Source: Acidobacteriaceae bacterium (GTDB taxonomy: Bacteria > Acidobacteriota > Terriglobia > Terriglobales > Acidobacteriaceae). Taken from it: a stretch of 64,000 nucleotides of DNA. The notes under the pieces are model-generated. The model ran no database searches, was not told where the DNA came from, and worked only from the letters and a program-made list of their open reading frames with translations. The position numbers and the translations under genes were made by a program. Where the stretch lies: contig PKVW01000021.1 of assembly GCA_003131585.1 (NCBI GenBank), positions 55,354 through 119,353 of the forward strand, written 5' to 3'. Every line of letters begins with the position of its first letter. Position 1 is the stretch's first letter. This document shows, piece after piece, positions 12,732 through 38,891 of the stretch.

Positions 12732-12753
12732 TTCTTGCTCGCTTTGAAGCTTC

Positions 12754-13446: not shown

Positions 13447-13656
13447 GGCTTTTATTGTAGCTGGAAAACAGTTGTCCGCAGCCAGTTGCCAGTTGCCGAA
13501 ACGGGTTAGGGGCGTGATTTTTATCGGATTGTAACAATCAGGTTGGAGGCGAGGTCGAGGTGGAAGCGGGACGATTGTCCGGTTACGGCATTGACTCAGC
13601 GGTGTCCAAAATGATTTGATGAGCATCAGGATTTGTTTCGTCCGCGACGGAGGATA

Positions 13657-14002: not shown

Positions 14003-14147
14003 ATGACGAGACCTCATATCCAGCTACTCTGGCACTAGCGCCTGGACTAATGGAAGCGAAGGGAAAGCCAATATTTCATATTAACCTGTGGAGAAATCCA
14101 ATTCCCTGTGGAAAGCGGAGGAAAGATGGCGTGACCGTTTTGCGGAG

Positions 14148-21444: not shown

Positions 21445-22128
21445 ATGGCGAACGATCGAGAAAAAGAAGCGGCGGCGCGGGCGAGCTTGCGATTCGTAGG
21501 AGATGGGCAGGTGGTGGGATTGGGCACCGGCTCGACTGCCGCTTATTTCATTCGGCTGCTGGGCGAGCAGGTGAAGAATGGGCTGCGGATTCGCGGCATA
21601 CCCACGTCGAACCGTTCGCAGGAGCAGGCGGCGAGCCTGGGGATTCCGCTCACCACGCTGGATGAATGTCAGGAGATCGATGTGACCGTGGACGGGGCGG
21701 ATGAAGTCGATCCGCAATTGCGGCTGATAAAAGGTGGAGGCGGAGCGCTATTACGGGAAAAAATTGTGGCTTCGGCTACCAAGCAACTCGTGATTGTGGC
21801 CGATGCGACGAAGAGAGTCCCGGTACTTGGAAGGTTTCCACTGCCGGTGGAAGTGGTCAAGTTCGCGCAGGCGATGGTGGCGAAGAAGATTGAGGCGCTG
21901 GGTGCGGAAGTTGGGCTGCGGCGGCAAGCGGAGGGTCAGCCGTATTTGACCGACGAGAACAATTACATTCTTGATTGCCGGTTCGGGCGGATTCCGGATG
22001 CAAATAGGCTGGCCCGGCAGCTTAGCGATATGCCGGGAGTGGTGGAACACGGTCTGTTCATTGGCATGGCGAGTGTGGTGCTGGTGGCAAACGGGAGTGA
22101 GATCGTCGAGCTGCGGCGCGGACATTAG
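21445..22128 (+). CDS. rpiA: Ribose-5-phosphate isomerase A
   Basis: 227 aa, the usual length. It interconverts ribose-5-P and ribulose-5-P in the pentose phosphate pathway. Motifs: VVGLGTGSTAAYFI, SNRSQEQAASLGIPL, DVTVDGADEVDPQLRLIKGGGGALLREKI and the C-terminal ITDxxNYILD-like YLTDENNYILDCRFG. Catalytic Asp (DGADE), Glu and Lys are present. It could receive ribose-5-P from the nucleoside locus about 32 kb away. Confidence 0.93.
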   Translation: MANDREKEAAARASLRFVGDGQVVGLGTGSTAAYFIRLLGEQVKNGLRIRGIPTSNRSQEQAASLGIPLTTLDECQEIDVTVDGADEVDPQLRLIKGGGGALLREKIVASATKQLVIVADATKRVPVLGRFPLPVEVVKFAQAMVAKKIEALGAEVGLRRQAEGQPYLTDENNYILDCRFGRIPDANRLARQLSDMPGVVEHGLFIGMASVVLVANGSEIVELRRGH

Positions 22129-22214: not shown

Positions 22215-23084
22215 ATGGCGGCAGGGGCGCAAGCACAGGATCAGTCTCACCCGTCGCGGCGGCGTGGGCGGCGATACCGCGTGCAGGCGCCGGTGGATGT
22301 GACCGTGCTGCGTTCGGGGATTCCGGACACTCTGCCGGGACGGTCGGTCAACCTGGGAGAGGGCGGAGTGGCTGTGGTGCTGGCGGGAGAATTGTTGCCG
22401 GATGAGGCGGTGGGATTGGAGATCCGGCTGCCGCTGGCGGCCGATCCGCTGTGCACGCGGGCGCTGGTGCGGCATCACGATAAGCTGCGCTACGGGATGG
22501 AGTTTGTCGGGCTGTCGGTGGAGCAGCAGGCGGCGATTCGCGATTGGGCGGGAGAGGCGAAAGCGGAACCGGAACTGGAAGTACGCGCGAAGATTCCCGT
22601 AGCGGCCGGGAAAGGCTCCGAGAGTGGGAGATCGGGTGGCGCGCCGCCTCCTCCCCGCAAGCGGTTTGGCCGGGGATGGATATTCTTGCTGATGTCGGCG
22701 GCAATCTTACTGGCGGTTTTGTGGTGGCGCTGGAATCGCGGGTGGGAAGATTTGGAATCGGGTCTGCAGGAAAACGAAAAGATAACGGAACCGCCGCAGC
22801 CTCAGGCCCACGTTCCAGCCGATGTGATGGAGAAGCTGGTGACTCACCGCGTGGACCCCGACTATCCCGCGGCGGCGCGGCCGGAGAAGCTGCAGGGAGT
22901 GATCGTGGTGGATGTAGTCGTGGGACGCGACGGGTCAGTGGCGGACATGCACGCGCTGAATGGTCCCGAAGTGCTGGCACAGGCCGCAATGGATGCGCTG
23001 CGCTGGTGGCGGTTCGATCCTTACCGCGTCGAGGGTCAGCCGGTGGTGGTAGAGACGACGGTGGCGGTGGAGTTCAAACCCTAG
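22215..23084 (+). CDS. PilZ domain - TonB C-terminal domain fusion protein
   Basis: 289 aa. The N-terminal PilZ domain (about 15-115) has an Arg-rich start RRRGRRYRV and the motif SVNLGEGGVAVVL, where the usual Ser of N/DxSxxG is Gly. A proline-rich linker leads to one membrane helix (WIFLLMSAAILLAVLWWRW, about 156-174), then a TonB C-terminal domain (VDPDYPAAARPEKLQGVIVVDVVVG and WWRFDPYRVEGQPV). The topology puts the PilZ part in the cytoplasm and the TonB part in the periplasm. This could couple c-di-GMP to an outer-membrane process; that is inference. TonB_C domains without ExbBD nearby are common in this phylum. Confidence 0.8.
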   Translation: MAAGAQAQDQSHPSRRRGRRYRVQAPVDVTVLRSGIPDTLPGRSVNLGEGGVAVVLAGELLPDEAVGLEIRLPLAADPLCTRALVRHHDKLRYGMEFVGLSVEQQAAIRDWAGEAKAEPELEVRAKIPVAAGKGSESGRSGGAPPPPRKRFGRGWIFLLMSAAILLAVLWWRWNRGWEDLESGLQENEKITEPPQPQAHVPADVMEKLVTHRVDPDYPAAARPEKLQGVIVVDVVVGRDGSVADMHALNGPEVLAQAAMDALRWWRFDPYRVEGQPVVVETTVAVEFKP

Positions 23085-23165: not shown

Positions 23166-23570
23166 TCAAATGCGGCGTTTGCGCAGAGCGTTGAGGACGA
23201 TGATGCCGCTGACCCCAAAGGACACGACGGCGGCCAGCGCGGCGATCAGCATGAACACTCCGTTGAGCTGAAGGATGTCGGCGAATACGGCTGCGACGGC
23301 GAAGACAACCCCCAGCGCGTTGAGCCAAAGCGGACCTCGAACGGAAGACGCTCGGACGGACGAGGAAAGATCGGGACGCAGGCGAAGCTGCAAAAGCAAC
23401 GCGGCCACTCCGATGGCGGCGACCACGACCAACGCCACCGGGCTCAGGAACGCTCGACGGCTGGTATAGAGGACCACCAGCGCAAGAGCCGCGAGCAACA
23501 GCGCGGCGGCGATGATGGTGGCACCGCGCGGCTGAGGATTGGGGCCGGGGTTGGAGGAGTCGTCAGGCAC
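23166..23570 (-). CDS. Small four-helix membrane protein, unknown function
   Basis: 134 aa with a polar N-terminus (MPDDSSNPGPNPQPRG) and four predicted membrane helices at about 17-36, 43-62, 80-100 and 103-125, ending in RKRRI. No recognised domain. It is convergent with the PilZ-TonB gene and lies 42 bp downstream of the LuxR-type regulator on the same strand, so the two may be co-transcribed. Confidence 0.6.
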   Translation of the reverse strand: MPDDSSNPGPNPQPRGATIIAAALLLAALALVVLYTSRRAFLSPVALVVVAAIGVAALLLQLRLRPDLSSSVRASSVRGPLWLNALGVVFAVAAVFADILQLNGVFMLIAALAAVVSFGVSGIIVLNALRKRRI

Positions 23571-23612: not shown

Positions 23613-24383
23613 TCAAATTGGAGCGCGCCCAGCCTGTATTGGAATCCCTTCTTGAGCGTCCGGTGTGGAGCGGCCCATCCCGGCGAGCCATTCGGCCTGG
23701 AGCGGATCGCCATGATTGACGGCATAGAGGACGAGTTCGACCCGGGATGAGATTCCCAACTTGTCGAATATGCGGAACAGGTACTTCTTAACGGTGTGCT
23801 CGCTGAGGTCGAGTTCCCGGGCAGTATCGCGATTGCTGAGGCCTTCCGCGACGAGTGCGACGACCTGTTCTTCGCGCGGAGTAAGGAGCTGGTGGCCGCG
23901 GGAGTTGAGCACGCGCAGCGAAGGGACTTCGGAGATCAGATCGAGCAGGAAAGTAATCTGCTCGGTGTTGGCCCAGATCTGACCGCCGGCGACCCGCTGG
24001 ATGCACCTGCAGAGCAGCCGGAAATGCGTGTCCGAAATGCAGAAAATGCCGCGGGCGCCGGAGCGAAAAGCGCTCACCACCAGTTCACGATCATAGGACT
24101 CGACCAAAAGAACTTTGGGGACGGTGGGGTGGGAGAGATGAATGCGGCGCATTGCCGCCATCTGGTTGGCGATGCTGACGGAGTGATTCAGCGAAAGAAC
24201 AACGACTTTGGCCGGAGTGGAGGCGACCACCTGGAGAATCGAAGCTGTGTCGACCGGACAGGTGGAGATGCGGAACTCGGAGCGCCGGCGCAAGGCGCTG
24301 GTCAGCAGCTGAGCCTGCATCCGGTTGGAGTCCGCGATGAGGACCGTGATTGCGGGTGAAGTGATGGCTAAGGACGAACTCAT
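23613..24383 (-). CDS. LuxR/NarL-type regulator with degenerate receiver
   Basis: 256 aa. The C-terminal HTH is a clear GerE/LuxR domain (LTPREEQVVALVAEGLSNRD, then SEHTVKKYLFRIFDKLGISS). The N-terminal half has the receiver fold, with VLIADSNRMQ, but the phospho-acceptor position reads VVVLSLNHS (Ser in place of Asp), the Thr strand reads VLLVESYD, and the conserved Lys is lost in GARGIFCISD. It probably works without phosphorylation. It is divergent from the exopolysaccharide operon with a 506-bp gap, so it is a good candidate for that operon's regulator. Confidence 0.8.
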   Translation of the reverse strand: MSSSLAITSPAITVLIADSNRMQAQLLTSALRRRSEFRISTCPVDTASILQVVASTPAKVVVLSLNHSVSIANQMAAMRRIHLSHPTVPKVLLVESYDRELVVSAFRSGARGIFCISDTHFRLLCRCIQRVAGGQIWANTEQITFLLDLISEVPSLRVLNSRGHQLLTPREEQVVALVAEGLSNRDTARELDLSEHTVKKYLFRIFDKLGISSRVELVLYAVNHGDPLQAEWLAGMGRSTPDAQEGIPIQAGRAPI

Positions 24384-24889
24384 GAAACAGGGCTCCCCAT
24401 GAAACGGAATTGAGTAATGTCATCTTAGGGTGGGCACGGAAAGCTACTCAAGGGGACATGCCACATAATTTGCTCGAGGTTTTCAAATCGGGAATACAGG
24501 TTGCAATGCTGTGGAAAACCGAGGAGTACGTCTGGCGATCTGGGGATTCTTGAGGAAGTTCGAGGAGAATATCTCAGTAGAGTGGCTTTGCTCCGCATCT
24601 TCGAGGCCGCGCTTCTTGAGCGGGGTGTGATTCAGTGAACATGCAAGTCTACTTTTGTAGGTAGCCGGCAAGGGAACAGTCTTACGGCCCTAATCGAAAG
24701 CACCCGGCGCGAAGAAGACCCGCGGCACTTCTGGCTTCGGCACACTTCGGCGCCTAAGCCCGGCATGACCACATTGGTAGACGGTACTTTGCATGTCTTG
24801 CTGCGAAATCGGCATCGAGATACCTTGCACAAAGAGAGCCGCGGAACTGAGTGGCGCTCGGAATCCAGGAAAATAGAGTCCATCACGCA
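24384..24889. other. Long divergent intergenic region before the exopolysaccharide operon
   Basis: 506 bp between the pseudo-receiver regulator and the Wza-like gene. No ORF here has coding support. It must hold the promoters of both directions and a long leader for the operon, which encodes its own UpxY-type antiterminator. I see no convincing sigma-70 boxes or terminator hairpin by eye. Confidence 0.5.
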
Positions 24890-25681
24890 ATGAAGCTCCT
24901 CGTCGGCTGGAAAGTAGTTGCGGTAATGGCGCTGTTGGTATTGCAGGTTTGCGTAGCCGCATTCGCCCAGGAGGAAAAGAGGCAGCAGTACCTGGGAGCA
25001 ACCATACAGTCTTCTCAAACCGGCCAAACCGGGGCTGGGCTGGGAAGCACAGGAATGACGGCTGCAAAACCCGGGCAGGCGGACGGCATGGGAAACCCTC
25101 AGCTCGGAGGGGAACGCCGTTCGCTTTACCGGCTGAACCGTAGCGACGTGGTGGCCTTGAGTTTCACGTTATCGCCGGAGTTCGACCAGACGCTCACGAT
25201 ACAACCGGACGGATATGTCGCGCTGAAGGATGCGGGCCCGGTGCTCGCCCAGGGATTCACGCTGGAGGAGTTCCGTCTGGCCGTACGGCGGGCGTACACG
25301 GGATATTTGCACGACCCGCAGGTCGCGGTGGCGCTGAAGGAGTTTGAGCACCCCTATTTTGTGGCGGGTGGAGAAGTGGGAAAGCCCGGCAAGTACGAGT
25401 TGCGCGCAGACACGAGCATCATGGAAGCGGTAGAGATCGCGGGCGGCTTCACGCACGAAGCGAAGCATTCGCAGGTTCTTCTATTCCGGCACGTGAACGA
25501 TGATTTGGTGGAGGCGCGCGTTTTCAACCTGAAGAGGATGTTGAGGGAAAAGAGCCTGGGCGAGGCCTTTCAGTTGCGCCCGGGTGATCTGGTCTTTGTT
25601 CCCCAAAATTCCATCTCGAAGATCGAGCGGTTTCTCAGCAAGCCTTCCCTAAGCATGTACGTGAGTTCTACCCAGTTCTAG
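24890..25681 (+). CDS. Polysaccharide biosynthesis/export protein (Wza-like)
   Basis: 263 aa from ATG 24890 (MKLLVGWK), where a signal peptide ends at AAFAQ; the track's start at 24851 is too early. The Poly_export domain spans YRLNRSDVVALSFTLSPEF to about residue 165. A SLBB-type domain follows (YFVAGGEVGKPGKYELRADT), and the protein ends with RPGDLVFVPQNSISKIERFL. It would form the outer-membrane/periplasmic part of the exopolysaccharide export channel. It is the first gene of the plus-strand operon. Confidence 0.88.
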   Translation: MKLLVGWKVVAVMALLVLQVCVAAFAQEEKRQQYLGATIQSSQTGQTGAGLGSTGMTAAKPGQADGMGNPQLGGERRSLYRLNRSDVVALSFTLSPEFDQTLTIQPDGYVALKDAGPVLAQGFTLEEFRLAVRRAYTGYLHDPQVAVALKEFEHPYFVAGGEVGKPGKYELRADTSIMEAVEIAGGFTHEAKHSQVLLFRHVNDDLVEARVFNLKRMLREKSLGEAFQLRPGDLVFVPQNSISKIERFLSKPSLSMYVSSTQF

Positions 25682-25703: not shown

Positions 25704-27203
25704 ATGCCAAACCAAGATCCAGCGCGCAAAGAAGAAGAATCACAGTCGCCGACGATGCGGGAGCTTGCGATGGTCCTGTTCCGGCAGCGGAAACTCTTTG
25801 TCGGCGTCTCGGGGTTGGTTCTGTTCTTGGCCTTTGTCTATGCATTCGCTGGGGCCACGTATCGCGCCCAAGTGCGGGTGCTGGTGCGTCGAGGACGTGC
25901 CGACCCTCCGGTAACCGCACAGCAGAATGCTCCTCCCGATTTTTCCCGGGTGGAAGTAACCGAAGAAGAACTGAATTCGGAGGTGGAACTACTGAAGGAC
26001 GACGATGTTTTGCGCCGCGTGGCGGAGGCCAACAATTTGGCTGTCCAGGATTGGTTGCGATGGCTCCGGCCCCACGAAGAGCAGGCGGCGCGCGTGGAGC
26101 GGGCAGCGAAGAAACTGGCGGGACGGCTGAACGTGGAACCGATTAAGAAAACCAACCTGATCGCGGTGAGTTATGACGCGCCGGATCCGCAAGTGGCGGC
26201 GCACGTGCTGCAGTCGCTAGCCAGCATCTACCTGGAAAAGCACATGGCAGTCCACCGGCCGGGCGGGCAACTTCATTTCTTCGATCGGCAGACCGGGGAG
26301 TCGCGACGGCAACTGGAGGAGGCTCAGGGAAAGCTGGTGGATTTCACGAAGAGTCATGGCGTGGTGGTGGCGGCACAGCAACGTGATCTGGCGCTGCAAC
26401 GGCTCGACGACGTGGAGGCGAGTTACCGGCAGACTCAGGTCGAGATATCGGAGACAGCGCACCGGGTTCAAGAACTCCATGCGCAGTTGGCGAAGTTGCC
26501 GGAGCGGACCACTACGCAGGTTCGCACGGCAGACAATCCGGAGCTGTTGCGGGCGCTGAAGGCGAGCCTGCTGGATCTTGAACTGAAGAAGACTCAGTTA
26601 CTGACCAAGTTTGAGCCAAACCATCGCCTGGTGCGGGAAGTCGAGCAGCAGATCCTGCAGGCCAAGGCTGCGATCGCGGCCGAAAGATTGAGTCCGTTGC
26701 GCGACGAAACCACGGACCAGAATGCGAACTATGAATGGGCCAAAGCGGAACTGCAGAAAGCGCAGGTTGAGATGAGGGGATTGGAAGCTCGAGAGGCAAC
26801 GACAAGCGCGCACTTGGCGGGATATCGCGCCTTGGCCCGCCAACTCGGCGAGGATGCCATTGCCCAGGACGATCTGACGAACAGCGAAAAGGCGGCCCAG
26901 GAGAATTACCTCCTCTATGTGAAGAAACGGGAACAATCACGGATGGGCGATGCGTTGGACGAGGGCGGCATCGTCAATGTAGCTATCGCCGAGCAACCGG
27001 TCGTGCCGGCACTGCCGGTGTGGCCGGCCGGAGCGGTCGTGCTGATGGGATTTGTCGTGGCCCTGACTTCGGGCACTGGAGCCGCGTTCGCCGCGGATTA
27101 TCTGGATCCGGCGCTGCGCACGCCAGAGGAAGTGTTGGCCTGTTTGGAAATTCCGGTACTAGCTTCGATACCGGCAGGAATGGGCAGGCGGTTGTCCGCC
27201 TGA
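25704..27203 (+). CDS. Chain-length determinant / GumC-Wzc-like protein without kinase domain
   Basis: 499 aa. Wzz domain with an N-terminal membrane helix (about 32-50) after a basic, cytoplasmic start, a long periplasmic coiled-coil region (RQLEEAQGKLVDFTKSHGVV, then EVEQQILQAKAAIAAERL), and a second helix near 437-458 (PVWPAGAVVLMGFVVALTSG). The C-terminus stops soon after (PEEVLACLEIPVLASIPAGM), where fused BY-kinases would begin. It would act as polysaccharide co-polymerase. The next gene encodes a separate kinase-like domain. Confidence 0.85.
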   Translation: MPNQDPARKEEESQSPTMRELAMVLFRQRKLFVGVSGLVLFLAFVYAFAGATYRAQVRVLVRRGRADPPVTAQQNAPPDFSRVEVTEEELNSEVELLKDDDVLRRVAEANNLAVQDWLRWLRPHEEQAARVERAAKKLAGRLNVEPIKKTNLIAVSYDAPDPQVAAHVLQSLASIYLEKHMAVHRPGGQLHFFDRQTGESRRQLEEAQGKLVDFTKSHGVVVAAQQRDLALQRLDDVEASYRQTQVEISETAHRVQELHAQLAKLPERTTTQVRTADNPELLRALKASLLDLELKKTQLLTKFEPNHRLVREVEQQILQAKAAIAAERLSPLRDETTDQNANYEWAKAELQKAQVEMRGLEAREATTSAHLAGYRALARQLGEDAIAQDDLTNSEKAAQENYLLYVKKREQSRMGDALDEGGIVNVAIAEQPVVPALPVWPAGAVVLMGFVVALTSGTGAAFAADYLDPALRTPEEVLACLEIPVLASIPAGMGRRLSA

Positions 27204-27213: not shown

Positions 27214-27924
27214 ATGAGCGCGAATGCTGACGTACTGCAAGGGTCCGAAGTGATGGGGTCACCGGCGCAGGAAAGAGCGTGGCCGCAGGTTGGGGTCTTT
27301 CGCGAGACGAACGATTGGAATCCGGAGAACTTCGCGCGCGAACAGATTCGGGGCTTGGTGCGGCGGGTGTTCTTTACCAGCCCAGCTCGACCGGTAAAAC
27401 AGGTCGTCTTCAGCGCGGCGGAGCCGCACACAGATGTGGCCGGTATCTGCGACCAGGTGGGACAGGCTCTGGCGCTGGAGACACGTGCTCATATCGCCGT
27501 CGTGGGCCGTAACCCGCGCGTAGAAGAAATGGTGCGGGCTCACCATCGCGGTATGGGGGGTGCTGCGATCAAATCCTGGTCTACCCAAACGGCGATCAAC
27601 CTGTGGCGCGTGCCGGGGTTTGGGCTGCGCCCATGCGGCGAAGAGTCAGGGACGGGGCGCTATTGGCTTTCCTGCCTCGCGGAGCTCCGAAGTGAATTCG
27701 AATATGCCGTAATTCACGGGCCCGCAGCGGGGATATCGAGCGAGGCCGTATTGCTGGGACAGCTAGCGGATGGAATTATTCTCGTGCTGGGGGCTCATAG
27801 CACACGGCGAGCGACCGCTCGCAAGATCAAGGAAACGCTGGAAGCCGCGCAGTCTCGAATCCTGGGAACGGTGCTGAGCGAGAGAACATTTCCGGTCCCG
27901 GAGCGGATTTACCGCCGGCTGTAG
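27214..27924 (+). CDS. BY-kinase/MinD-like protein lacking Walker A
   Basis: 236 aa, 10 bp after the chain-length gene. Position and fold match the CpsD/CapB-type tyrosine kinase usually paired with Wzc-like proteins: VKQVVFSAAEPHTDVAGICD where a P-loop (GEGKST) should be, FEYAVIHGPAAGISSEAVLL where the Walker B DxP is expected, then ADGIILVLGAHSTRRATARK. The P-loop Gly/Lys and the Walker B Asp are missing and there is no C-terminal Tyr cluster. It is probably a catalytically dead structural partner. The fold call rests on the C-terminal half and operon position. Confidence 0.65.
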   Translation: MSANADVLQGSEVMGSPAQERAWPQVGVFRETNDWNPENFAREQIRGLVRRVFFTSPARPVKQVVFSAAEPHTDVAGICDQVGQALALETRAHIAVVGRNPRVEEMVRAHHRGMGGAAIKSWSTQTAINLWRVPGFGLRPCGEESGTGRYWLSCLAELRSEFEYAVIHGPAAGISSEAVLLGQLADGIILVLGAHSTRRATARKIKETLEAAQSRILGTVLSERTFPVPERIYRRL

Positions 27925-28134
27925 TCAATTGAAGCAATTGCGGGCGAAGGCCGACGCTTCTTGAAGTCTCATAGCGCGGCATGATGGATGCCGTGCCGGG
28001 CCACACGCTGGTGGAGCGAAAACGCGCTCCAACCATTGGGCAGGCCGTTCCAACGAGTAACCGTTGTTGCCGCAAGTAGGCGGCAAGAACTGAAAATGCT
28101 GTGCAATGGGAAACTGGAAGGGCGATGGGACTCA

Positions 28135-28707
28135 ATGAGCGGTAGCTATGGGGCCCCGGCGGCAGGCGTTGCCCCTCGGGCACAGATGCCGCCGCAGCCA
28201 GTAGTAGAGGCCACACGGCCACAGTGGTTTGCGGTACAGACGCGATACCGGTTCGAGAAAAGGGTCGTCGCGCAGCTTAACCGCAAGCGCTGCGAAGTCT
28301 ACCTGCCATTGCTGACCGAGCACCACTCCTGGAGCGACCGGCAGCAGGTGGTGACGGTTCCTCTGTTTCCGGGATACGCGTTCGTGCATATCGATCGGTC
28401 CCACGATGCGCGGCGGGCGGTATTGCAAACAGCGGGCCTGATCGGCTTCGTGAGCTTCGGAGGGATGGTTGCGGCGGTTCCGACGAAGCAGATTGAAGAT
28501 CTGAAATTGCTGTTGCAGGAGAAGGGACTCTTCTCCCTGCACCCGTTCGTGCACGCTGGACAGCGCGTGCGAATCCGGGGCGGTTGCCTGCACGGATTAG
28601 AAGGAGTGCTGGTACAACACGAGAAGAGCAAGTTGCTGATCTCAATTGAGTCGATCCAGCGCTCGCTGGCGATTGAGATCCAGGGGTACGAGTTGGAATT
28701 GATCTGA
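28135..28707 (+). CDS. UpxY/NusG-like transcription antiterminator
   Basis: 190 aa from ATG 28135; ATG 28096 and the track's 27988 are alternatives. NGN domain: QWFAVQTRYRFEKRVVAQLN and VTVPLFPGYAFVHID. C-terminal KOW segment: FVHAGQRVRIRGGCLHGLEG. Specialised NusG paralogues such as UpxY, LoaP and RfaH bind RNA polymerase early in long polysaccharide operons and suppress termination. Its place within the exopolysaccharide operon fits that role here. The target leader would be the long region before 24890. Confidence 0.85.
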   Translation: MSGSYGAPAAGVAPRAQMPPQPVVEATRPQWFAVQTRYRFEKRVVAQLNRKRCEVYLPLLTEHHSWSDRQQVVTVPLFPGYAFVHIDRSHDARRAVLQTAGLIGFVSFGGMVAAVPTKQIEDLKLLLQEKGLFSLHPFVHAGQRVRIRGGCLHGLEGVLVQHEKSKLLISIESIQRSLAIEIQGYELELI

Positions 28708-28708: not shown

Positions 28709-30025
28709 GTGTCTTCTCCTTTCTTACATCCCAGACAGCCGAACCCTCAGGGAACCGAGTGGGCGGCGCGGTTAATCCCAGGAGCAGCCTCCGTCGGCGG
28801 CCGGAAAAAGGCGCAGCGGGAAGCAGGTCTGCATGCTGCATTCTCGCGTTGGGATGAGGCAACACCATTCCCGCCCCCTGGCCCGAAAAGTGGTCCGAGC
28901 GTTCTCGCTCCGCAGTGGCCCGAACCGCTGCAGAGCCGAGGCGGCAAGAATTGGGTGCGGTCAACCATTGTCTGGAGCGCCGGCATCCTGCACTTTGGCG
29001 CTTTGTTGATATGGCGATGGGCCGAACGGCAGGGCAATCAGCGTGGCACACGCGCCATGAGTAGCATGCGGAATGTGCTCATCGTGGGAACGGGCGAACT
29101 GGGCCGCAGGATCGCGGACCATTTGGAAAAGCATCCGGAGATGGGCCGATCGGTTTGCGGTTTTCTGGACGACTGGGAGGCGTTAGGAAATGGCGTAATC
29201 GGACGAATAAGCGAACTGGCGGAGCTTGCACGCACCGGGTTCGTAGACGAGGTGATCCTGGCGGGGCCGCATGATCGGGAGAAAACCTTGCGCGTGCTTC
29301 GCGCAGCCCAGCAACTGCGGTTGGACGTCAAGATGGCGCCCGATCTGTTTGGTTGCGAGCCGACGCGGGAAACGGAACGGATTGGGGGCATTCCTCTCAT
29401 TTCCCTGCATGAAGAGCGATTGCCGGTCGCGGGATTGTTGCTGAAACGGGCGTTGGACGTGGTGGGTGCCGGGGCGGCGCTGATCCTGATGGCGCCAGCG
29501 CTGGCCCTGCTCGCGATTCTCATCGGACTAGATTCGCCGGGGCCAGTGCTCTATGCAGCACTGCGCGCCGGGCGCAAGGGCCGGCCGTTTCGCTGCTACA
29601 AGTTTCGCACCATGGTTAGGGATGCGGACGCTTTGAAGGAGGGCTTGCGCGAGCGCAATCAGAGGCAGGGTCCGTTCTTCAAAATCACAGACGATCCGCG
29701 AATTACACGGGTCGGACGACTCCTGCGCCGCTATAGTCTGGACGAACTTCCGCAGCTATGGAACGTGCTGAAAGGCGAGATGAGCTTGGTGGGGCCGCGG
29801 CCGCATCCGCTGGACGACTTTTCCGCTTATGCGATTGAGCACTTGCCGCGGCTGGACGTGGTCCCGGGAATCACAGGGCTTTGGCAGGTGTCGGCGCGGC
29901 GGGATCCATCCTTTCAAGCCGGAATGAACCTGGATATTGAGTACATCCACCGCTGGAGCCTGGGGATGGACCTGAGGATTTTGCTGAAGACCGCAGGGGC
30001 CGTGCTGCGGGGGAGCGGAGACTGA
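28709..30025 (+). CDS. Undecaprenyl-phosphate sugar phosphotransferase (WcaJ/PssE-like)
   Basis: 438 aa, GTG start right after the UpxY stop. The N-terminus is a low-complexity stretch with one possible helix (about 92-110), not the usual four-helix bundle. A Rossmann CoA_binding_3-like part starts at VLIVGTGELGRRIADHLEKH. The C-terminal bacterial sugar transferase domain has LLKRALDVVGAGAALILMAP, CYKFRTMVRDAD, YSLDELPQLWNVLKGEMSLV and GPRP, and GITGLWQVSAR. It would start repeat-unit synthesis by transferring a sugar-1-P to undecaprenyl phosphate. ATG 29057 is a possible internal start. Confidence 0.88.
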   Translation: MSSPFLHPRQPNPQGTEWAARLIPGAASVGGRKKAQREAGLHAAFSRWDEATPFPPPGPKSGPSVLAPQWPEPLQSRGGKNWVRSTIVWSAGILHFGALLIWRWAERQGNQRGTRAMSSMRNVLIVGTGELGRRIADHLEKHPEMGRSVCGFLDDWEALGNGVIGRISELAELARTGFVDEVILAGPHDREKTLRVLRAAQQLRLDVKMAPDLFGCEPTRETERIGGIPLISLHEERLPVAGLLLKRALDVVGAGAALILMAPALALLAILIGLDSPGPVLYAALRAGRKGRPFRCYKFRTMVRDADALKEGLRERNQRQGPFFKITDDPRITRVGRLLRRYSLDELPQLWNVLKGEMSLVGPRPHPLDDFSAYAIEHLPRLDVVPGITGLWQVSARRDPSFQAGMNLDIEYIHRWSLGMDLRILLKTAGAVLRGSGD

Positions 30026-31386
30026 TGGCGTCGGCGTCGGTCAGGACGGCGTCACCCGCTTCGTGGGCAGGGGAGGCAGCCTGGCGAGGGCTTCGGGTAG
30101 GGCTGCATCCGCTGCAGGCGATGATGATGTCGCCGGCTGCGCTGTTTCTCGCGGCGCTGGCGGCCATGCTGCTGCGGCCTCCCGATGTGTCTTTCTACGA
30201 GATCGATCGCGTCGCATTCGTGTTGTTAGTCCTCGGGGTGATGGGACGAGCGGTCGTGACGCGGCAGCGGTTACTGGTGGTGGAACGTGCCACGTGGCCA
30301 ATGATCGGGCTGACGCTTTTGGCGGTGGCGAGCGTCATGGGGCAACCGTTCGACAATCGGACCTGGTGTCTGCTCGCGGCGAAATTTATTGTGCCGTTCG
30401 CGCTGTTTCATCTGGCGGCGCTAGTGTTTCGCGAGGAGCGGCGGTTAGAGCAATTCGAGCTTTTCGCCCTCGTGGTGCTTGCCTATCTGTGCTTCACGTC
30501 GATCGCGTTCCTGGTGGGCGCGAAGTCATTGATTTTTCCGCGCTTCATTCTGGACGAGAGCCTGGGCTACCACGCCGACCGGGCGCGAGGACCGCTGCTG
30601 CAGGCGGTGGCAAACGGGGTTTCCTTGAATCTGCTTGGTGTGCTGGCGCTGCACGCGTTTCTGCGGGGAAGAATACGCGGCTTAAGAGCTGCTCTGCTGC
30701 TGGCTTCCCTGCCGGTCGCAATCCTGGCGACGATGACACGCGCCGTCTGGCTCTCATTCGCGGCCAGCATTGGGTTTCTGATTTTTCGTTCGCACAACCG
30801 GAGGCTGAGGCGTATCTGCATCGCCGTAATGATCGTGGGATCTCTGGGCTTACTCATAGCTTTGAGCTTTGACGACCAGCGCCGCGCGCTCACGGACCGG
30901 TTGCGGGAATCTGGCCCCCTCGATTTTCGCCAGGCGGTTTACGCCGGCGGCTGGCAGATGTTCTTAGAAAAGCCATTGACCGGGTGGGGCGTAAACCAGA
31001 TGCCGGCGGAGTTGGCGCGTCACGTCAGCGGCTACAAGGAGAAGGAACTATATCCGCACAACACCTATCTGGAAATACTGGTGGAACATGGCATTGCCGG
31101 ACTGGCGCTGTATGTGTGGCTGATGTGGGAGGTTTTGCGGCTGGGACGGAGCCTGGTGCCACGGGCCGAACGCGAGGGCCTGCTGAATCAGCGGTTTCAT
31201 GCCATGTGGCCGGTATTGCTCGGAGTCTATTGGGTGAACGCCGCTGTTGTGGTGATGAATTATCAGTTCGTGAACGGGCTTCTGTTCACCATGGCGGGAA
31301 TGCTGGCAGCACAGCGGCGGCGCGCTGCTAGAGACTTGGAACGCCCCGCGGCTCCTCTCCTGACACTGCGCGGCTCCGCTGCTTAA
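30025..31386 (+). CDS. O-antigen ligase/polymerase family membrane protein
   Basis: 453 aa, overlapping the previous stop (TGATG). About ten to twelve membrane helices with the Wzy_C/O-antigen ligase signature loop FLEKPLTGWGVNQMPAELAR followed by YPHNTYLEILVEHGIAGLAL. This family polymerises or ligates lipid-linked glycans in the periplasm. As the only such gene in the operon, it most likely acts as the Wzy polymerase. Confidence 0.85.
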   Translation: MASASVRTASPASWAGEAAWRGLRVGLHPLQAMMMSPAALFLAALAAMLLRPPDVSFYEIDRVAFVLLVLGVMGRAVVTRQRLLVVERATWPMIGLTLLAVASVMGQPFDNRTWCLLAAKFIVPFALFHLAALVFREERRLEQFELFALVVLAYLCFTSIAFLVGAKSLIFPRFILDESLGYHADRARGPLLQAVANGVSLNLLGVLALHAFLRGRIRGLRAALLLASLPVAILATMTRAVWLSFAASIGFLIFRSHNRRLRRICIAVMIVGSLGLLIALSFDDQRRALTDRLRESGPLDFRQAVYAGGWQMFLEKPLTGWGVNQMPAELARHVSGYKEKELYPHNTYLEILVEHGIAGLALYVWLMWEVLRLGRSLVPRAEREGLLNQRFHAMWPVLLGVYWVNAAVVVMNYQFVNGLLFTMAGMLAAQRRRAARDLERPAAPLLTLRGSAA

Positions 31387-31422: not shown

Positions 31423-32733
31423 GTGTTGACGGTCGCCTATCTCGCCAATCAATTTCCTGCCGCCGTGGAGCCCTACGTGAGCGAGGAGATTCAGGAACTG
31501 CGGCAGCGGGGAGTTCAGGTCATTCCCGGCAGTGTGCGAAGGCCGCATGCGCCACAACGCGGATCGGCCAACGAAGCCTCTGAGCCGCAGATTCTATGCC
31601 TGCAGCCGGTTCGGGCGCTGACGCTTCTGCGAGCTTTGGGGCTGGCGGCGCGGCGCTGGGATCGGATTGCCGATTTAGTGACGCGGGTGCTCCTTCGGGG
31701 AAAGGAATCGCCCAAGCGTCGCCTGAAAGCCCTGCTGCACACCTGGTTGGGAGCGTATTACGCCGTACTGTTGCAAGAGCGTGGGGTGGATCACGTCCAT
31801 GTGCATCACGGCTATTTCGGGTCGTGGATCGCGATGGTGGCGGCCCGGTTGTTGGGAGTGAGTTTCAGCCTGACGCTGCACGGGTCGGACCTGCTGCTCG
31901 ACGGCGCCTATCTCGACGCGAAACTGGAGAATTGCCGGTTTTGCCTAACCATTTCCGAGTACAACCGCCGCTATATTCTGAAGCATTTTCCGGCAATCGA
32001 CCCGGCAAAGATCATAGTCTCGCGGCTGGGCGTCGACGCACCGGAACACGCGGAATCTCCCCGGAAGGTTGCATGTGGGGCACGCCGCACTTTCACTCTG
32101 CTGGCCGTCGGACGCCTGCATGCGGTGAAGGATCACGCATTTCTGGTTCGCGCCTGTGAGCGGCTTCGCGACCGTGGACTCGACTTTGAGTGTCTGATAG
32201 CTGGCGAAGGACCGGAGCGGCAGCATCTCGAATTGCTGATCCGGAAAAACCGGCTGCAAGACCGTCTCAAGCTACTCGGCCACGTCACCCGGCAGCAGAT
32301 GGATTCACTCTACCGGCGCGCCGATGTGGTTGTGCTTACAAGCCGCAGCGAAGGAATTCCGCTGGTGCTCATGGAAGCGATGGTGCGGGGCAAAATTGTG
32401 CTCGCGCCCGCGATTACTGGGATCCCCGAGATCGTCATCGCCGGGGAAACGGGATTCCTCTTTGCGCCGGGGGCGCTGGAGGATTTCGTCGAGAGGATTC
32501 TCTTCCTTCACATCCTGATGCGCTCGGAGGATCGCTATGCAGCGAGCAGGCTGGACTGGATTCGGCACGCAGCGCGGATACAAGTCCTTCACAACTTTAG
32601 CCGCAGGAAAAACCTGACTCACTTTGGCGACCGGTTCCTGCAATTGATCGCAACCCAGAATTTCGCAACCCAGAATTTCGCAAACCAGGATTGGAGCCCT
32701 CCCCATGAGGATCTTGTATTGCAACAAATATAA
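31423..32733 (+). CDS. Glycosyltransferase family 4 protein
   Basis: 436 aa, GTG start (MLTVAYLANQFPAAVEPYV). GT4 of the colanic-acid WcaL type: N-terminal domain with HVHHGYFGSWIAMVA and TLHGSDLLLDGAYLD, C-terminal domain with LAVGRLHAVKDHAFLVRACE and the nucleotide-sugar motif SEGIPLVLMEAMVRGK. Its C-terminal tail FATQNFATQNFANQDW is encoded by a 15-bp tandem repeat and lies just before the overlap with the next gene. The transferred sugar is unknown. Confidence 0.87.
   Translation: MLTVAYLANQFPAAVEPYVSEEIQELRQRGVQVIPGSVRRPHAPQRGSANEASEPQILCLQPVRALTLLRALGLAARRWDRIADLVTRVLLRGKESPKRRLKALLHTWLGAYYAVLLQERGVDHVHVHHGYFGSWIAMVAARLLGVSFSLTLHGSDLLLDGAYLDAKLENCRFCLTISEYNRRYILKHFPAIDPAKIIVSRLGVDAPEHAESPRKVACGARRTFTLLAVGRLHAVKDHAFLVRACERLRDRGLDFECLIAGEGPERQHLELLIRKNRLQDRLKLLGHVTRQQMDSLYRRADVVVLTSRSEGIPLVLMEAMVRGKIVLAPAITGIPEIVIAGETGFLFAPGALEDFVERILFLHILMRSEDRYAASRLDWIRHAARIQVLHNFSRRKNLTHFGDRFLQLIATQNFATQNFANQDWSPPHEDLVLQQI
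32649..32693. repeat. 15-bp in-frame tandem repeat at the GT4 C-terminus
   Basis: CGCAACCCAGAATTT occurs twice exactly and a third time degenerately. It adds FATQN-type units to the GT4 tail without changing frame. Confidence 0.8.
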
Positions 32734-35281
32734 CTACCCCTTTAGCGGTACCGAAGCCTACCTGTTCGAAGCCATGGAACTCATGCGCTCCAACGGACAT
32801 GAGGCGGCCCTATTCTCCATGAACGACCCTAGAGGCCAGCCCACTCCGTACGACCGCCATTTCATGCCGCATATCGACTTCAAAACGCAGAGTGGATGGT
32901 TTCACAAGGTAAGGCTGGCGGGACGCGCGATTTATTCACGCGAGGCACGCCGACGGATTCGGGCGATGATCGCGGAATCCCGGCCGGACGTGGCCCATGT
33001 CCGCAACATCTATCATCATCTGTCGCCGTCGATCTTATGGGAGTTGAAGGCGCAGAAAGTTCCAGTCGTCTATCACCTGAACGACTTCAAGGTGCTGTGT
33101 CCCAGCTACAACCTGGTCTTGCGCGGCGAAGCCTGCGAGGCCTGCAAGGGCGGCGAATTCTGGCACGCGCTGCAAGAGAAGTGTTATCCGGGGCGGGGGG
33201 CGCGGATGACGCTGGTCGCGGAGGCTTACGTCCACAAATGGCTGGGCACGTACCGGAAATGCGTGGACTGCTTCCTTGCGCCCAGCCAATTTGTGCGCGA
33301 CAAGTTTGTCGAGCATGGATGGGATCCGGCCAAGTTCGAAGTTCTTCCCCACTTCCAGCCAGTCAAGGCGGTTGTGGAGCGCAATGCCGAAAACGCACCG
33401 CTGCTTTATTTCGGCCGGTTGTCACCGGAGAAGGGCGTAGCCGACCTGCTGTATGCCATGCAGCGCCTGCCAAATCTTCGTCTGATCGTCGCGGGGGAAG
33501 GACCGGAGCGCGGCCCCCTGGAGCAGCTTGCAGTCCAGTTGGGATTGGCCAACGTGGAGTTTGCAGGTCACATGCGGGGAGCGGAACTGGATCGCGCGAT
33601 TGCTAACTCGCGTTTCACGGTCCTGCCGTCGCATGCGTATGAAACGCTGGGCAAGACGATTCTCGAATCCTATGCTGAAGCGCGAGCCGTGGTGGCCACA
33701 GACCTGGGATCGCGGCGGGAATTGGTACACGAGGGCAAGACGGGACTTCTATATAGAACGGGCGATGTCGGCCAACTGACATCGGCCATCCAATTTCTCA
33801 GCTCGCAACCGGAACTGGCGGACAAAATGGGGCTGGCCGGCCGGGAGCAGTTGTGGCGGAGATATGCGCCAGAGGCGCATTACGAAGCGTTGGTTGGCTT
33901 GTATGAGCGCCTGGCGGATGGAAAAAAGCAATCGTCAGGCGTGTCAAAGCTGAGAAAGATTCGAAGCACGGCTCTCACGGCGAACACCGCACAAACTGGG
34001 ATGCCGCGAGTGGATAGAGGTGACTTCGTTCCCTTGCAACGCTTGGCCTTCGCCGCTGCGTTGCCGGGTTCCACCGACGTTCCTCCGGCAGCGGTGCAGA
34101 AACGGATGCTACGGGTCGCGTTCATTGGTGGGCGGGGCGTAGTTTCGAAGTACAGCGGGATTGAGACCTACTACGAAGAAGTTGGAAAACGGCTGGCGGG
34201 GATGGGACACCAGGTAACGGCATATTGCCGGACCTACTTCACTCCGCCGGGGAAACAACACAACGGAATACAAGTGGTGCGGCTGCCAACGGTCCGATCC
34301 AAGCATCTGGAAACGTTGGTGCATACGTTTCTCAGCACACTCCATGTGCTCGCGAGCCCCTGTGATGTCGTTCACTACCATGCGCTGGGGCCGGCACTAT
34401 TTTCGTTTATTCCGCGCCTCGCAGGAAAGAAAACCGTGGTCACGGTGCAGGGTCTGGACTGGCAGCGCAAGAAATGGGGACGCATCGCCTCGATTGTCCT
34501 GCGGTTTGGGGAGCGAGCGGCAGTGAGTCTGCCCACCCGCACAATGGTGGTCTCCCACGCGTTGCAGAAGCACTACAGGGGGAACTATGGAGTGGAGACC
34601 TCTTACGTGCCGAACGGCGGCGCGCTGCGCGAGCGGCGTTTGCCAGATAAAATCTTTGATTGGGGTCTTGAGGCGGGAGAATACATTCTGTTTCTGGGAA
34701 GATTTTCGCCGGAAAAGGGCTGCCATCTGCTGGTCGAGGCGTATGAGAAGTTGGACACCGACATAAAGCTCGTAATGGCGGGGGCGTCGAGCTATTGCGA
34801 CGACTACTCACGCCGCCTGCGAGCCCATGCGGGTGAGCGGATCAAGATGCTGGACTGGGTTTCGGGCGAAGCTCTCGACGAGTTGCTGACCAATGCCATG
34901 GTGTTTGTCTTGCCGTCCGATCTGGAGGGCTTGTCCCTGGCCCTGCTGGATGCAATGGGCGCCGGGCTTTGCGTGCTCAGCAGCGACGTTGCGGAAAATC
35001 GGGAAGCGGTCGACGACGCAGGATTCACGTTCCGGCGCGGTGACGTTGCAGATTTGACGGACCGCCTGCGATTCCTGATTGCGAATCCAGCGGTGCGCGA
35101 GGCCGCGGGACAGGCCGCGAAACGCCGCATCCGCGAACATTACCAGTGGCCGAAGATTGCCGCGGAGATCGAGCGGGTCTATTTCGAAATGATGGGATGG
35201 GAGTCGGCGGAGACTCCATCCAGAAAGCCGCTCGGACGGGTAGCAGCGCCTGCACTGGCCACACGACGACGGGCGGGATAG
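32705..35281 (+). CDS. Double glycosyltransferase (GT4-GT4 fusion)
   Basis: 858 aa; ATG 32705 overlaps the previous gene by 29 bp. The first GT4 (about 1-400) runs from MRILYCNKYNYPFSGTEAYL to its C-terminal domain (LLYFGRLSPEKGVADLLYAM, YETLGKTILESYAEARAVVA). A linker of about 65 residues follows. The second GT (about 468-840) starts LRVAFIGGRGVVSKYSGIET, similar to DUF1972-type rhamnosyltransferases, with LFLGRFSPEKGCHLLVEAYE and DLEGLSLALLDAMGAG. The frame is continuous; Met468 suggests an older gene boundary. It could add two successive sugars. Last gene of the operon, with a terminator after it. Confidence 0.88.
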   Translation: MRILYCNKYNYPFSGTEAYLFEAMELMRSNGHEAALFSMNDPRGQPTPYDRHFMPHIDFKTQSGWFHKVRLAGRAIYSREARRRIRAMIAESRPDVAHVRNIYHHLSPSILWELKAQKVPVVYHLNDFKVLCPSYNLVLRGEACEACKGGEFWHALQEKCYPGRGARMTLVAEAYVHKWLGTYRKCVDCFLAPSQFVRDKFVEHGWDPAKFEVLPHFQPVKAVVERNAENAPLLYFGRLSPEKGVADLLYAMQRLPNLRLIVAGEGPERGPLEQLAVQLGLANVEFAGHMRGAELDRAIANSRFTVLPSHAYETLGKTILESYAEARAVVATDLGSRRELVHEGKTGLLYRTGDVGQLTSAIQFLSSQPELADKMGLAGREQLWRRYAPEAHYEALVGLYERLADGKKQSSGVSKLRKIRSTALTANTAQTGMPRVDRGDFVPLQRLAFAAALPGSTDVPPAAVQKRMLRVAFIGGRGVVSKYSGIETYYEEVGKRLAGMGHQVTAYCRTYFTPPGKQHNGIQVVRLPTVRSKHLETLVHTFLSTLHVLASPCDVVHYHALGPALFSFIPRLAGKKTVVTVQGLDWQRKKWGRIASIVLRFGERAAVSLPTRTMVVSHALQKHYRGNYGVETSYVPNGGALRERRLPDKIFDWGLEAGEYILFLGRFSPEKGCHLLVEAYEKLDTDIKLVMAGASSYCDDYSRRLRAHAGERIKMLDWVSGEALDELLTNAMVFVLPSDLEGLSLALLDAMGAGLCVLSSDVAENREAVDDAGFTFRRGDVADLTDRLRFLIANPAVREAAGQAAKRRIREHYQWPKIAAEIERVYFEMMGWESAETPSRKPLGRVAAPALATRRRAG

Positions 35282-35344
35282 ACCAGCCAGCCGTGTAGCC
35301 GCACGAACCGCTTTAGCTCGCACAAACCGAACGCACCAACAAGA

Positions 35345-35370
35345 GGACGGGATGAATCCCGTCCTTTTTG
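35345..35370 (+). terminator. Rho-independent terminator after the exopolysaccharide operon
   Basis: GGACGGGAT-ga-ATCCCGTCC followed by TTTTTGTTT. Perfect stem and U-run, about 64 bp after the double-GT stop. It separates the export/assembly operon from rfbBACD. Confidence 0.88.
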
Positions 35371-35449
35371 TTTACAATTGGAAGTAGCCTCGCGGGCAGC
35401 GGCGTGGCGAGCGGGCGCATGCCGTTTAATCCAGAGCAGCTTCCACGAT

Positions 35450-36514
35450 ATGGAAAACACGATCCTGGTCACTGGCGGAGCAGGCTTTATCGGATCCAAT
35501 TTCATCCTGCAGCGGATGGAACGGGAATCGGATTCCGTTGTGAACCTGGACAAACTCACCTATGCGGGGCATCTGCGCAATCTGGAAGCCATCGCAAACG
35601 ACCGGCGCCACGAGTTTGTGCACGGAGACATTGCAGACCGGGGGCTGGTGCGGGGCCTGCTGGAACGTCGGAGGCCACAGGCCATCGTGCATTTTGCAGC
35701 CGAGAGCCATGTGGATCGTTCCATCCGGGGACCGGATGATTTCATCCGCACGAATGTGGATGGTACTTTCGCGCTGCTGGAAGAGGTACGAACATATTGG
35801 GGAGGTCTGACTGAGCAGGAGAGAGCGGACTTTCGCTTTCTACATGTTTCCACGGATGAGGTGTTCGGCTCGCTCGATCCCGAGGATCCCGCTTTTTCTG
35901 AAACTACGCCGTATGCGCCCAATAGTCCTTACGCCGCTTCCAAAGCAGCCTCGGACCATTTTGTGCGCGCCTACCACCACACGTACGGGTTGCCAGTCCT
36001 GACCACCAACTGCTCGAATAACTACGGGCGATTTCAATTCCCGGAGAAGCTGATACCGCTGGTGATCCTGAACGCGCGCGCCGGTAAACCGCTGCCCGTT
36101 TACGGGGACGGGCAGAACGTTCGGGATTGGCTTTATGTGGAGGATCACTGCGAAGCGATCGCAACGGTACTCACCCGAGGACGAGTAGGGCAGACGTATA
36201 ACATCGGCGGCTGGAATGAGAAGCGGAACATCGACATCGTGGAAATAATCTGCGACATTGTGGATGAGATGGCGGGGCGCCGCGGATCTTCGCGCCGCGG
36301 CCTGATTACATTTGTGAAGGACCGCCCCGGGCACGACCGGCGTTACGCCATGGACGCAAATAAGATTGAGCGGGAACTCGGCTGGCGTCCGCTGGAAACA
36401 TTTGAGAGTGGAATTCGCAAGACGGTACGATGGTACTTGGAGAATGAGGAGTGGGTCCGCGATGTGACGAGCGGGAGCTACCGGCAGTGGATTGAAACGC
36501 ACTATTCTTCGTGA
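35450..36514 (+). CDS. rfbB: dTDP-glucose 4,6-dehydratase
   Basis: 354 aa from ATG 35450 ([20 protein letters not shown]); the track start at 35378 adds 24 unlikely residues. Extended SDR enzyme with the NAD motif [21 protein letters not shown], catalytic Thr in [12 protein letters not shown] and [15 protein letters not shown] (YxxxK). It makes dTDP-4-keto-6-deoxyglucose from dTDP-glucose, the second step to dTDP-L-rhamnose. First gene of rfbBACD, about 80 bp after the terminator. Confidence 0.95.
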
Positions 36515-36562
36515 ATTAGAGCCGTTGAATTGCGGCCGCAGCCCGAGCAGAAGAATCGCCCT

Positions 36563-37465
36563 ATGATGCACGCCTCGAACAGCACAGGTTATAAGGGGAT
36601 CATTTTGGCGGGAGGGTCGGGAACCCGCCTCTATCCCGTGACCCATGCCATGGGCAAGAGCCTGCTCCCGGTTTACAACAAACCCATGATCTATTACCCG
36701 CTGTGCACGCTGATGCTGGCGGGGATTCGCGACATCCTTCTTATTACGACGCCAGAGGACGTGCTCAAGTTTCAAACGTTGCTGGGGGACGGAAGTCAGT
36801 TTGGAATCCACTTGCAATACAAAGTGCAGCCCAAGCCGGAAGGAATCGCTCAGGCTTTTTTAGTAGGAGAGGCATTTCTTGGATCCAGCGCTTGCGCCCT
36901 GGTATTGGGCGACAATATTTTTTATGGGCACGACCTGGCCAAGGACTTGCGGGAAGCCGCAACTAAGACTCAGGGTGCGCGCGTATTTGCCTATCCCGTA
37001 CACGATCCCGAACGTTATGGCGTTGTGGAATTCGATGGCGCCGGGCGGGCTCTCAGCATCGAAGAGAAGCCCAAGCGGCCGAAATCGCGTTACGCGGTGA
37101 CTGGAATTTATTTTTACGACGATCAGGTGGTCAAGATCGCGAAGTCGCTGAAGCCCAGCGCACGGGGCGAGTTGGAGATCACCGACGTGAACAAGGCATA
37201 CCTGGAACGCGGCCAATTGGAGGTCGTGGTCATGGGACGTGGCATGGCATGGCTGGATACAGGCACGCATGAGTCCTTGATGGATGCGGCGCTCTACATT
37301 CAAGCCATCGAGAAAAGGCAAGGGCTGATGGTGGCTTGCCCCGAAGAGATTGCCCTCCGCTCCGGTTACATTACGGCAGAGCAAGTGGAGAAAATCGGCA
37401 ACTCGATGAAGAACAACAGTTACGGCACTTACCTGCTGCAACTCTTGCGAGAGAAGGTATTCTGA
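36563..37465 (+). CDS. rfbA: Glucose-1-phosphate thymidylyltransferase
   Basis: 300 aa from ATG 36563 (36566 also possible). Nucleotidyltransferase with [48 protein letters not shown] and [20 protein letters not shown]. It joins glucose-1-P and dTTP to give dTDP-glucose, the first step to dTDP-L-rhamnose. Its stop overlaps the rfbC start (TGATG), indicating translational coupling. Confidence 0.95.
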
Positions 37466-38046
37466 TGGATGCAGTTCAAGCAATTCGCCCGGTGATGGAT
37501 GCACTCAAGAGAATCCCGACCTCGCTGCCCGGAGTATTCGTCCTCGAACCAAGGGTATTCGGGGACGAGCGTGGATTTTTCTTCGAGAGCTACAACCAGC
37601 GCATCATGGCCGATGTGGGAATTGTTGAGAGATTTGTGCAGGACAACCATTCCTGCTCCTCCCGCAACGTTTTGCGGGGTTTGCATTATCAGGTAAGGCA
37701 TCCGCAGGGAAAACTTGTGCGCGTTGCCGAGGGGGAGATTCTGGACGTCGCCGTCGACCTGCGCCGAAGTTCTCCGAGCTTTGGCCACTGGGAAGCGGTG
37801 CGGTTGACGGGCGAGAACAAACGCATGTTGTGGATCCCGATGGGCTTTGCGCACGGATTCCGCGTGCTTTCGGAAAAGGCTCACGTGCTTTACAAGGCGA
37901 CTGATTTCTACGCACCCGAGCACGAACGCACACTCGCCTGGAACGATCCCCATCTCAAGATCAACTGGGAATTGGAAGGCGAACCGATCGTGTCGGCAAA
38001 AGACCAGCGCGGCGCCGCATTCCGCGACGCCGAGAGTTTCGAATAA
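37465..38046 (+). CDS. rfbC: dTDP-4-dehydrorhamnose 3,5-epimerase
   Basis: 193 aa from ATG 37465. Cupin-fold epimerase with EPRVFGDERGFFFESYNQR, DNHSCSSRNVLRGLHYQVRH (catalytic His), KLVRVAEGEILDVAVDLRRSS and GFAHGFRVLSEKAHVLYKAT. Third step of dTDP-L-rhamnose synthesis. Coupled to rfbA upstream; rfbD follows after 5 bp. Confidence 0.95.
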   Translation: MDAVQAIRPVMDALKRIPTSLPGVFVLEPRVFGDERGFFFESYNQRIMADVGIVERFVQDNHSCSSRNVLRGLHYQVRHPQGKLVRVAEGEILDVAVDLRRSSPSFGHWEAVRLTGENKRMLWIPMGFAHGFRVLSEKAHVLYKATDFYAPEHERTLAWNDPHLKINWELEGEPIVSAKDQRGAAFRDAESFE

Positions 38047-38051
38047 ATCCG

Positions 38052-38891
38052 ATGCGAGTCACAATTTTTGGCGTTTCCGGCCTGCTGGGTAAGGCGCTCA
38101 TGCAGGAGTGGAGCGGAGATATCGTGACTGGACTCACCTCGCGCGCTGCAGACATCCGCGATGCCAGGCGCGTAGAGGCGGTGGTGCAGGAAACACGTCC
38201 GGAGTGGATCGTGTTGGCCGCAGCTTACACCGATGTGGACGGATGCGAAAGCAATCCGGACCTGGCGTTCGCGGTGAACCGCGATGGAGCGGCAAATGTC
38301 GCCACGGCGGCAAAGATGGCCGGGGCACGGCTGCTATTCCTCAGTTCCGATTACGTCTTCGCCGGAAACAAGACCACACCCTATGAGACCTGCGACGCAC
38401 GAAATCCGCAGAGCGCCTACGGGCGCACCAAGGCGGAAGCGGAGATCAAGCTGCTGGAGTTGATGCCGGATTGTTGCATCGTCAGAACGTCGTGGCTGTT
38501 CGGCACGGGCGGGAAATGCTTTCCCGACACGATCTTGAAGTTGGCAGCCAGCCGTCCTGCAATCGATGTGGTCAACGATCAGCGCGGTTGCCCAACTTAT
38601 GCGGTAGACCTGGCACGGGCGATTACTCAATTGTGCCGGAAGAGCGCGAACGGAATTGTGCACGTGACCAACGCGGGCGACTGCACTTGGTTTGAGTTTG
38701 CGCAAGAAATTGTCCGGGGAGCGGCCCTTTCCACAACCGTGCGGCCGGTGAGCAGTCAGCAGATGGCGCGGCCTGCGCCTCGGCCCGCGTATTCAGTTTT
38801 GTCGCCGGCCGGTCTGCAGGCGCTCGGAATTGAAATGCCTCCCTGGCGCGATGCATTGCGGCGCTACCTGGAGCAACGACAGAGCCGATAA
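38052..38891 (+). CDS. rfbD: dTDP-4-dehydrorhamnose reductase
   Basis: 279 aa. SDR/RmlD fold with a GVSGLLGK nucleotide loop, AAAYTDVDGCESNPDLAFAV, LSSDYVFAGNKTTPYETCDA and YGRTKAEAEIKLLE (YxxxK). Final NAD(P)H-dependent step giving dTDP-L-rhamnose. The rhamnose donor probably feeds the glycosyltransferases upstream, including the DUF1972-like domain. The tryptophan-degradation operon begins only 67 bp downstream. Confidence 0.93.
   Translation: MRVTIFGVSGLLGKALMQEWSGDIVTGLTSRAADIRDARRVEAVVQETRPEWIVLAAAYTDVDGCESNPDLAFAVNRDGAANVATAAKMAGARLLFLSSDYVFAGNKTTPYETCDARNPQSAYGRTKAEAEIKLLELMPDCCIVRTSWLFGTGGKCFPDTILKLAASRPAIDVVNDQRGCPTYAVDLARAITQLCRKSANGIVHVTNAGDCTWFEFAQEIVRGAALSTTVRPVSSQQMARPAPRPAYSVLSPAGLQALGIEMPPWRDALRRYLEQRQSR

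Follow-up and report, generated by a model that had tools for sequence, protein, structure and literature searches.

A direct action of c-di-GMP on polysaccharide synthesis has been worked out for Alg44 and the BcsA-type synthases (PMC3815931, which covers Alg44 and related systems). Alg44 is a PilZ-transmembrane (TM)-periplasmic protein needed for alginate polymerisation in Pseudomonas, and its periplasmic domain has been proposed as a link to other envelope components (PMC3815931). PixB of Myxococcus xanthus has two PilZ domains that carry the RxxxR motif and lack the serine of the second c-di-GMP motif, and the protein binds c-di-GMP in vitro (PMC8316039). In the TonB-ExbB-ExbD energy transducer of E. 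coli, an S-x3-H pair in the TonB helix contacts ExbB (PMC12215075). We found no description of a fusion between PilZ and a TonB C-terminal domain (TonB_C) in the open-access literature; architecture databases, which may list the fusion, and subscription journals lay outside the search. Nor did the literature searched describe an equivalent c-di-GMP receptor for a Wzy/Wza locus in Acidobacteriota.

In this study, we examine a protein of 289 residues that joins these two domains. It is encoded in the window, by which we mean the whole 64,000-nucleotide stretch of DNA that was analysed, in a genome whose nearest relatives are Candidatus Sulfotelmatobacter and Acidobacteriaceae metagenome-assembled genomes from peat and soil. 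The gene and its parts are as follows.

22215..23084, plus strand: PilZ-TM-TonB_C protein, open reading frame with ATG start, 289 aa
22257..22547, plus strand: PilZ domain, residues 15-111 (Pfam PF07238), predicted cytoplasmic
22260..22274, plus strand: RxxxR motif (R16 and R20), without variation in the 54 orthologues aligned
22350..22367, plus strand: second c-di-GMP motif, N46-L-G-E-G-G51 (NxGxxG where the consensus has [D/N]xSxxG)
22674..22775, plus strand: single TM helix with periplasmic extension, residues 154-187 (hydrophobicity and AlphaFold2)
22857..23078, plus strand: TonB C-terminal domain, residues 215-288 (Pfam PF03544), predicted periplasmic

An AGAGG-like ribosome-binding site, judged by eye, lies just 5' of the reading frame. 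The antisense strand was ruled out as coding, having two stops and no domain evidence. When the PilZ assignment made in a preliminary description of this DNA was put to a profile search, the domain scored 40.9 bits against a curated cut-off of 22.5 (Pfam, 2.7e-10), and TonB_C scored 56.9 bits against 24.6 (Pfam, 3e-15), with the NCBIfam tonB_Cterm profile also above its cut-off. One hydrophobic segment separates the two domains, and the helix that contains it is closed by a conserved WWxWNRGWxxLE. AlphaFold2 reached a mean pLDDT of only 65 when given 32 close orthologues; this model was superseded by one built with 54 diverse orthologues (mean pLDDT 84), in which PilZ and TonB_C are mostly above 90 and residues 154-187 form a single helix. 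Foldseek matched the PilZ half best to the PilZ domains of Alg44 with c-di-GMP (E ~1e-5) and of BcsA, and also to that of YcgR, many of these structures containing c-di-GMP; the C-terminal half matched the TonB C-terminal structures 6i97, 2gsk and 1u07. With both cut-offs passed and both folds modelled confidently, the fusion first described from the letters of this DNA is confirmed: PilZ and TonB_C are joined by one helix in a single polypeptide. An N-in topology, with PilZ inside and TonB_C outside, is predicted from the domain types.

The likeness to Alg44 lies in the cytoplasmic PilZ domain, the one membrane segment, the periplasmic domain (a topology that is predicted here) and the exopolysaccharide (EPS) locus described below. 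The differences are that TonB_C replaces the MexA-like membrane fusion domain of Alg44, that the locus is of the Wzy/Wza type whereas alginate is synthase-dependent, and that the motif-2 serine is not conserved among the orthologues. Since the periplasmic domain differs, the protein is not a member of the Alg44 family and at most works like Alg44.

The fusion is spread well beyond the host. Of 398 genomes sampled across the family, 82, belonging to 16 of the 79 genera, carry a full-length orthologue; this family-level search revealed a wider spread than a phylum sample of 297 genomes, where full-length matches occurred only within the host's own genus. In that genus, the gene is present in 39 of the 45 sampled genomes. 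Pairwise dN/dS values are ~0.08-0.26 for PilZ and ~0.06-0.14 for TonB_C and are higher in the linkers; such ratios indicate that both domains are under purifying selection. Because full-length orthologues occur in so many of the family genomes and dN/dS is low in both domains, the fusion is not a chance product.

Can the PilZ half bind c-di-GMP? The consensus [D/N]xSxxG is not matched in this protein, for G48 occupies the serine position (N46-x-G48-x-x-G51), as the preliminary description correctly pointed out. Across 68 orthologues this position holds glycine in 35, cysteine in 16, serine in 14, asparagine in 2 and alanine in 1. One reading of the 54 orthologues with a replaced serine is that the domain has lost c-di-GMP binding and acts as a module for protein-protein contacts, as degenerate PilZ proteins do. 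We regard this as unlikely: R16, R20 and G51, the last glycine of motif 2, are invariant in the 54 aligned orthologues, the serine is kept in 14 of the 68, and PixB binds the ligand without it (PMC8316039). PixB offers the closest parallel in having an RxxxR PilZ domain without the motif-2 serine, and differs in its double PilZ and acetyltransferase domain and in having no membrane or TonB_C part. Because PixB still binds c-di-GMP without the same serine, glycine at this position is compatible with binding and need not mean that the domain is dead; the earlier worry that it might alter binding is thus weakened. The host genome has 10 GGDEF and 26 PilZ matches by profile search, which makes it very probable that this organism has c-di-GMP signalling.

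The TonB_C half raises a separate question. The preliminary description suggested that c-di-GMP might gate either energy transduction or an envelope contact. In the first case, the protein would be coupled to ExbBD and would drive outer-membrane receptors when its PilZ domain is in the right state. The protein does share with the TonB-ExbB-ExbD transducer a genuine C-terminal TonB fold, with close matches to receptor-bound TonB (2gsk, 6i97), and an expected single-pass, N-in topology, and a receptor-like outer-membrane protein is encoded 38 kb away. It differs from the transducer in its N-terminal PilZ domain, its very short spacer and its position away from exbBD. Among the 20 TonB_C matches in the host genome, 11 proteins are membrane-anchored, and the spacer from hydrophobic segment to TonB_C is shortest in this one: 43 residues, as against 60-221 in the other ten. 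In the AlphaFold2 model, much of this spacer is helical, leaving ~12 flexible residues between the helix end at 187 and TonB_C, and it would be too short to cross the periplasm unless the membranes are locally close. The ordinary transducer is encoded elsewhere in the genome by a dedicated tonB-exbB-exbD-exbD operon, the TonB of which has a long, Pro-rich spacer of 125 residues. No exbB was found near the gene (C4:77.6 kb), the two ExbB-type genes lying at C4:227.9 kb and on C41. The helix also has no conserved polar residue, and S-x3-H is absent in all 65 orthologues scored; as the ExbB-linked TonB of this genome lacks that motif too, its absence was dropped as proof against ExbB coupling. 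Gating of energy transduction is therefore the part of the proposal that fared badly, and we consider it highly improbable in view of the short spacer and the separate exbBD operon. Control of an envelope contact by c-di-GMP is a reasonable suggestion, because PilZ on the inside and TonB_C on the outside are conserved as one unit.

The genomic surroundings bear on what is contacted. Two features that had been named as context are indeed in the window: a diguanylate cyclase (a GGDEF protein at 46082-47917) and a TonB-dependent receptor (the receptor-like outer-membrane protein at 60707-64000, with OMP_b-brl_4 and CarboxypepD_reg, which runs off the window). Lying 23 and 38 kb away, they form a weak context, and as functional partners they were rejected as too distant and outside the conserved neighbourhood. 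The closest context, an EPS locus, had been missed.

21445..22128, plus strand: rpiA-like gene, directly upstream, a neighbour conserved within the genus (name by reading the sequence)
23166..23570, minus strand: small multi-pass membrane protein, convergent, family not assigned
23613..24383, minus strand: LuxR-type response regulator of the EPS locus
24851..25681, plus strand: Wza-like polysaccharide export protein (Poly_export, SLBB), belonging to the subfamily with cross-genus linkage to the gene
25704..27203, plus strand: Wzz/EpsF-type chain length protein
27214..27924, plus strand: EPS tyrosine autokinase ATPase family, weak match (TIGR01007, 4e-8, below cut-off)
27988..28707, plus strand: UpxY/NusG-family antiterminator of polysaccharide operons
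28709..31386, plus strand: initiating sugar transferase and Wzy-type polymerase/ligase
31423..38891, plus strand: glycosyltransferase genes of the EPS cluster, with three genes of dTDP-rhamnose type (rfbB-, rfbA- and rfbD-like)

The gene thus stands at the edge of a Wza/Wzz/Wzy locus, with the EPS regulator and Wza beginning 0.5-1.8 kb downstream. It follows rpiA and is in a separate operon from Wza, two genes on the opposite strand intervening. Gene order is conserved in the host genus and runs rpiA, PilZ/TonB_C, small membrane protein, LuxR, Wza, Wzz. The small membrane protein has no Pfam or NCBIfam match; it is a recurrent neighbour of the gene in several further genera, including cases where the other neighbours differ, and is a candidate partner. 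Further along the window, a single reading frame on the plus strand (41427-43298) fuses an amidohydrolase to a tryptophan 2,3-dioxygenase, an unusual arrangement; genes for an FAD monooxygenase-like protein and a kynureninase come next, and together these make up a kynurenine-pathway cluster.

Linkage to one Wza subfamily holds across genera. Of the copies of the gene, 42 share a contig with the ortholog of this Wza; the distance between the two is 2.4-16.3 kb in 41 cases and 55 kb in the remaining one (G444). Sixteen genomes from 7 genera were tested for Poly_export matches, and in 15 of them one lies within 17 kb of the gene, against a background of 3-8 Poly_export genes per genome. By genus, 12 have both the gene and the Wza subfamily, 4 the gene only, 6 Wza only and 57 neither (Fisher 5e-7); both this co-occurrence and the linkage counts ignore shared descent. 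The ortholog tree has long branches and open forks, from which the count of independent moves to the side of the EPS locus is not derivable.

These data can also be read as an ancestral neighbourhood only, in which case the protein would be a c-di-GMP-responsive contact to the envelope or peptidoglycan with no special tie to polysaccharide. In several genera the gene is found beside mutL or metabolic genes, and at least two genera are true exceptions, carrying it on long contigs away from their Wza (G397 and G396). Some genomes keep the EPS locus and have no copy; in G005 and G035, of the host genus, the gene is missing from between retained flanking rpiA and EPS genes. Against this reading, the link to the same Wza subfamily persists through inverted and rearranged layouts and differing orientations in six genera. 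In genus g205, for example, the gene is beside rfbC/rfbA/rfbB-like genes (named by reading their sequences), and Wza is 10-14 kb away in the opposite orientation. A differently built protein, GAF-TM-TonB_C, shows the same tie to another Wza. We therefore judge a protein without a special EPS tie to be rather improbable.

The GAF-TM-TonB_C protein (L116) is encoded at positions 12296-14724 of a second EPS locus on contig C17 (L200, G000:C17:88000-107900). It adjoins a LuxR response regulator, and the second Wza is 8 kb away, in the company of Wzz, a BcsQ-like ATPase and a sugar transferase. Its presence at this locus is conserved through the host genus, and its orthologues lie 2-10 kb from the second-locus Wza in all 14 genomes that have both on one contig. 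Two further proteins of this kind are a receiver-like-TM-TonB_C protein of 541 aa, with a weak receiver match (L114; L202 7161-8783), and a Ser/Thr kinase-TM-TonB_C protein of 460 aa with one helix (L127; L203 7141-8520), neither of which was tied to EPS in this analysis. All three resemble the PilZ fusion in having a cytoplasmic signalling domain, one helix and a C-terminal TonB_C, and the GAF protein also in its place by a Wza locus; their sensor domains differ and their spacers are longer (60-158 residues). On contig C44 (~74963-75732; L204 4964-5733), a stand-alone PilZ gene has a neighbour ~70 bp away, in the same orientation, that encodes a short, secreted protein with TonB_C only; from its sequence, this pair is the fusion in split form, and a further PilZ gene comes after it. 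Elsewhere in the genome, a PilZ-GAF-TM-Sel1 protein (L201 10624-12375; G000:C68), which also combines PilZ with a tail that is probably periplasmic, is encoded ~4 kb from another Wza.

Because the protein is too short for an ordinary TonB and is usually near one EPS-export cluster, a role in the control of polysaccharide export, rather than of nutrient uptake, is probable. The specific proposal that we favour, on sequence and model evidence and at about even odds, is that the PilZ-TM-TonB_C protein may be an Alg44-like inner-membrane c-di-GMP receptor of the Wzy/Wza EPS machine, with TonB_C as its periplasmic contact module. In this proposal, c-di-GMP would bind the PilZ domain and the resulting change would pass through the helix, as has been proposed for Alg44-type receptors. 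TonB_C would then contact a periplasmic part of the EPS machine, which might be Wzz, Wza or the small membrane protein at 23166-23570, and this contact would switch EPS export or polymerisation. On this view TonB_C, positioned near the inner membrane, would serve for contact between proteins; it would not be driven by protons to pull on outer-membrane receptors.

A broader proposal is that, in this part of Acidobacteriota, TonB_C was recruited as a non-energising periplasmic output of single-pass signalling proteins (PilZ, GAF, perhaps receiver or kinase), each dedicated to a Wza-type export machine; EPS export would then be under a new class of control, by c-di-GMP or by a sensor. We put this forward tentatively, as a possibility that is somewhat doubtful at present.

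The name "energy transducer TonB" may mislead when it is applied in annotation to proteins of the PilZ-TM-TonB_C type. If the proposed role is true, the TonB C-terminal fold would be shown to do work beyond the powering of outer-membrane uptake, and the abundant, hardly cultured Acidobacteriota of soil and peat would gain a concrete receptor for the control of their exopolysaccharide.
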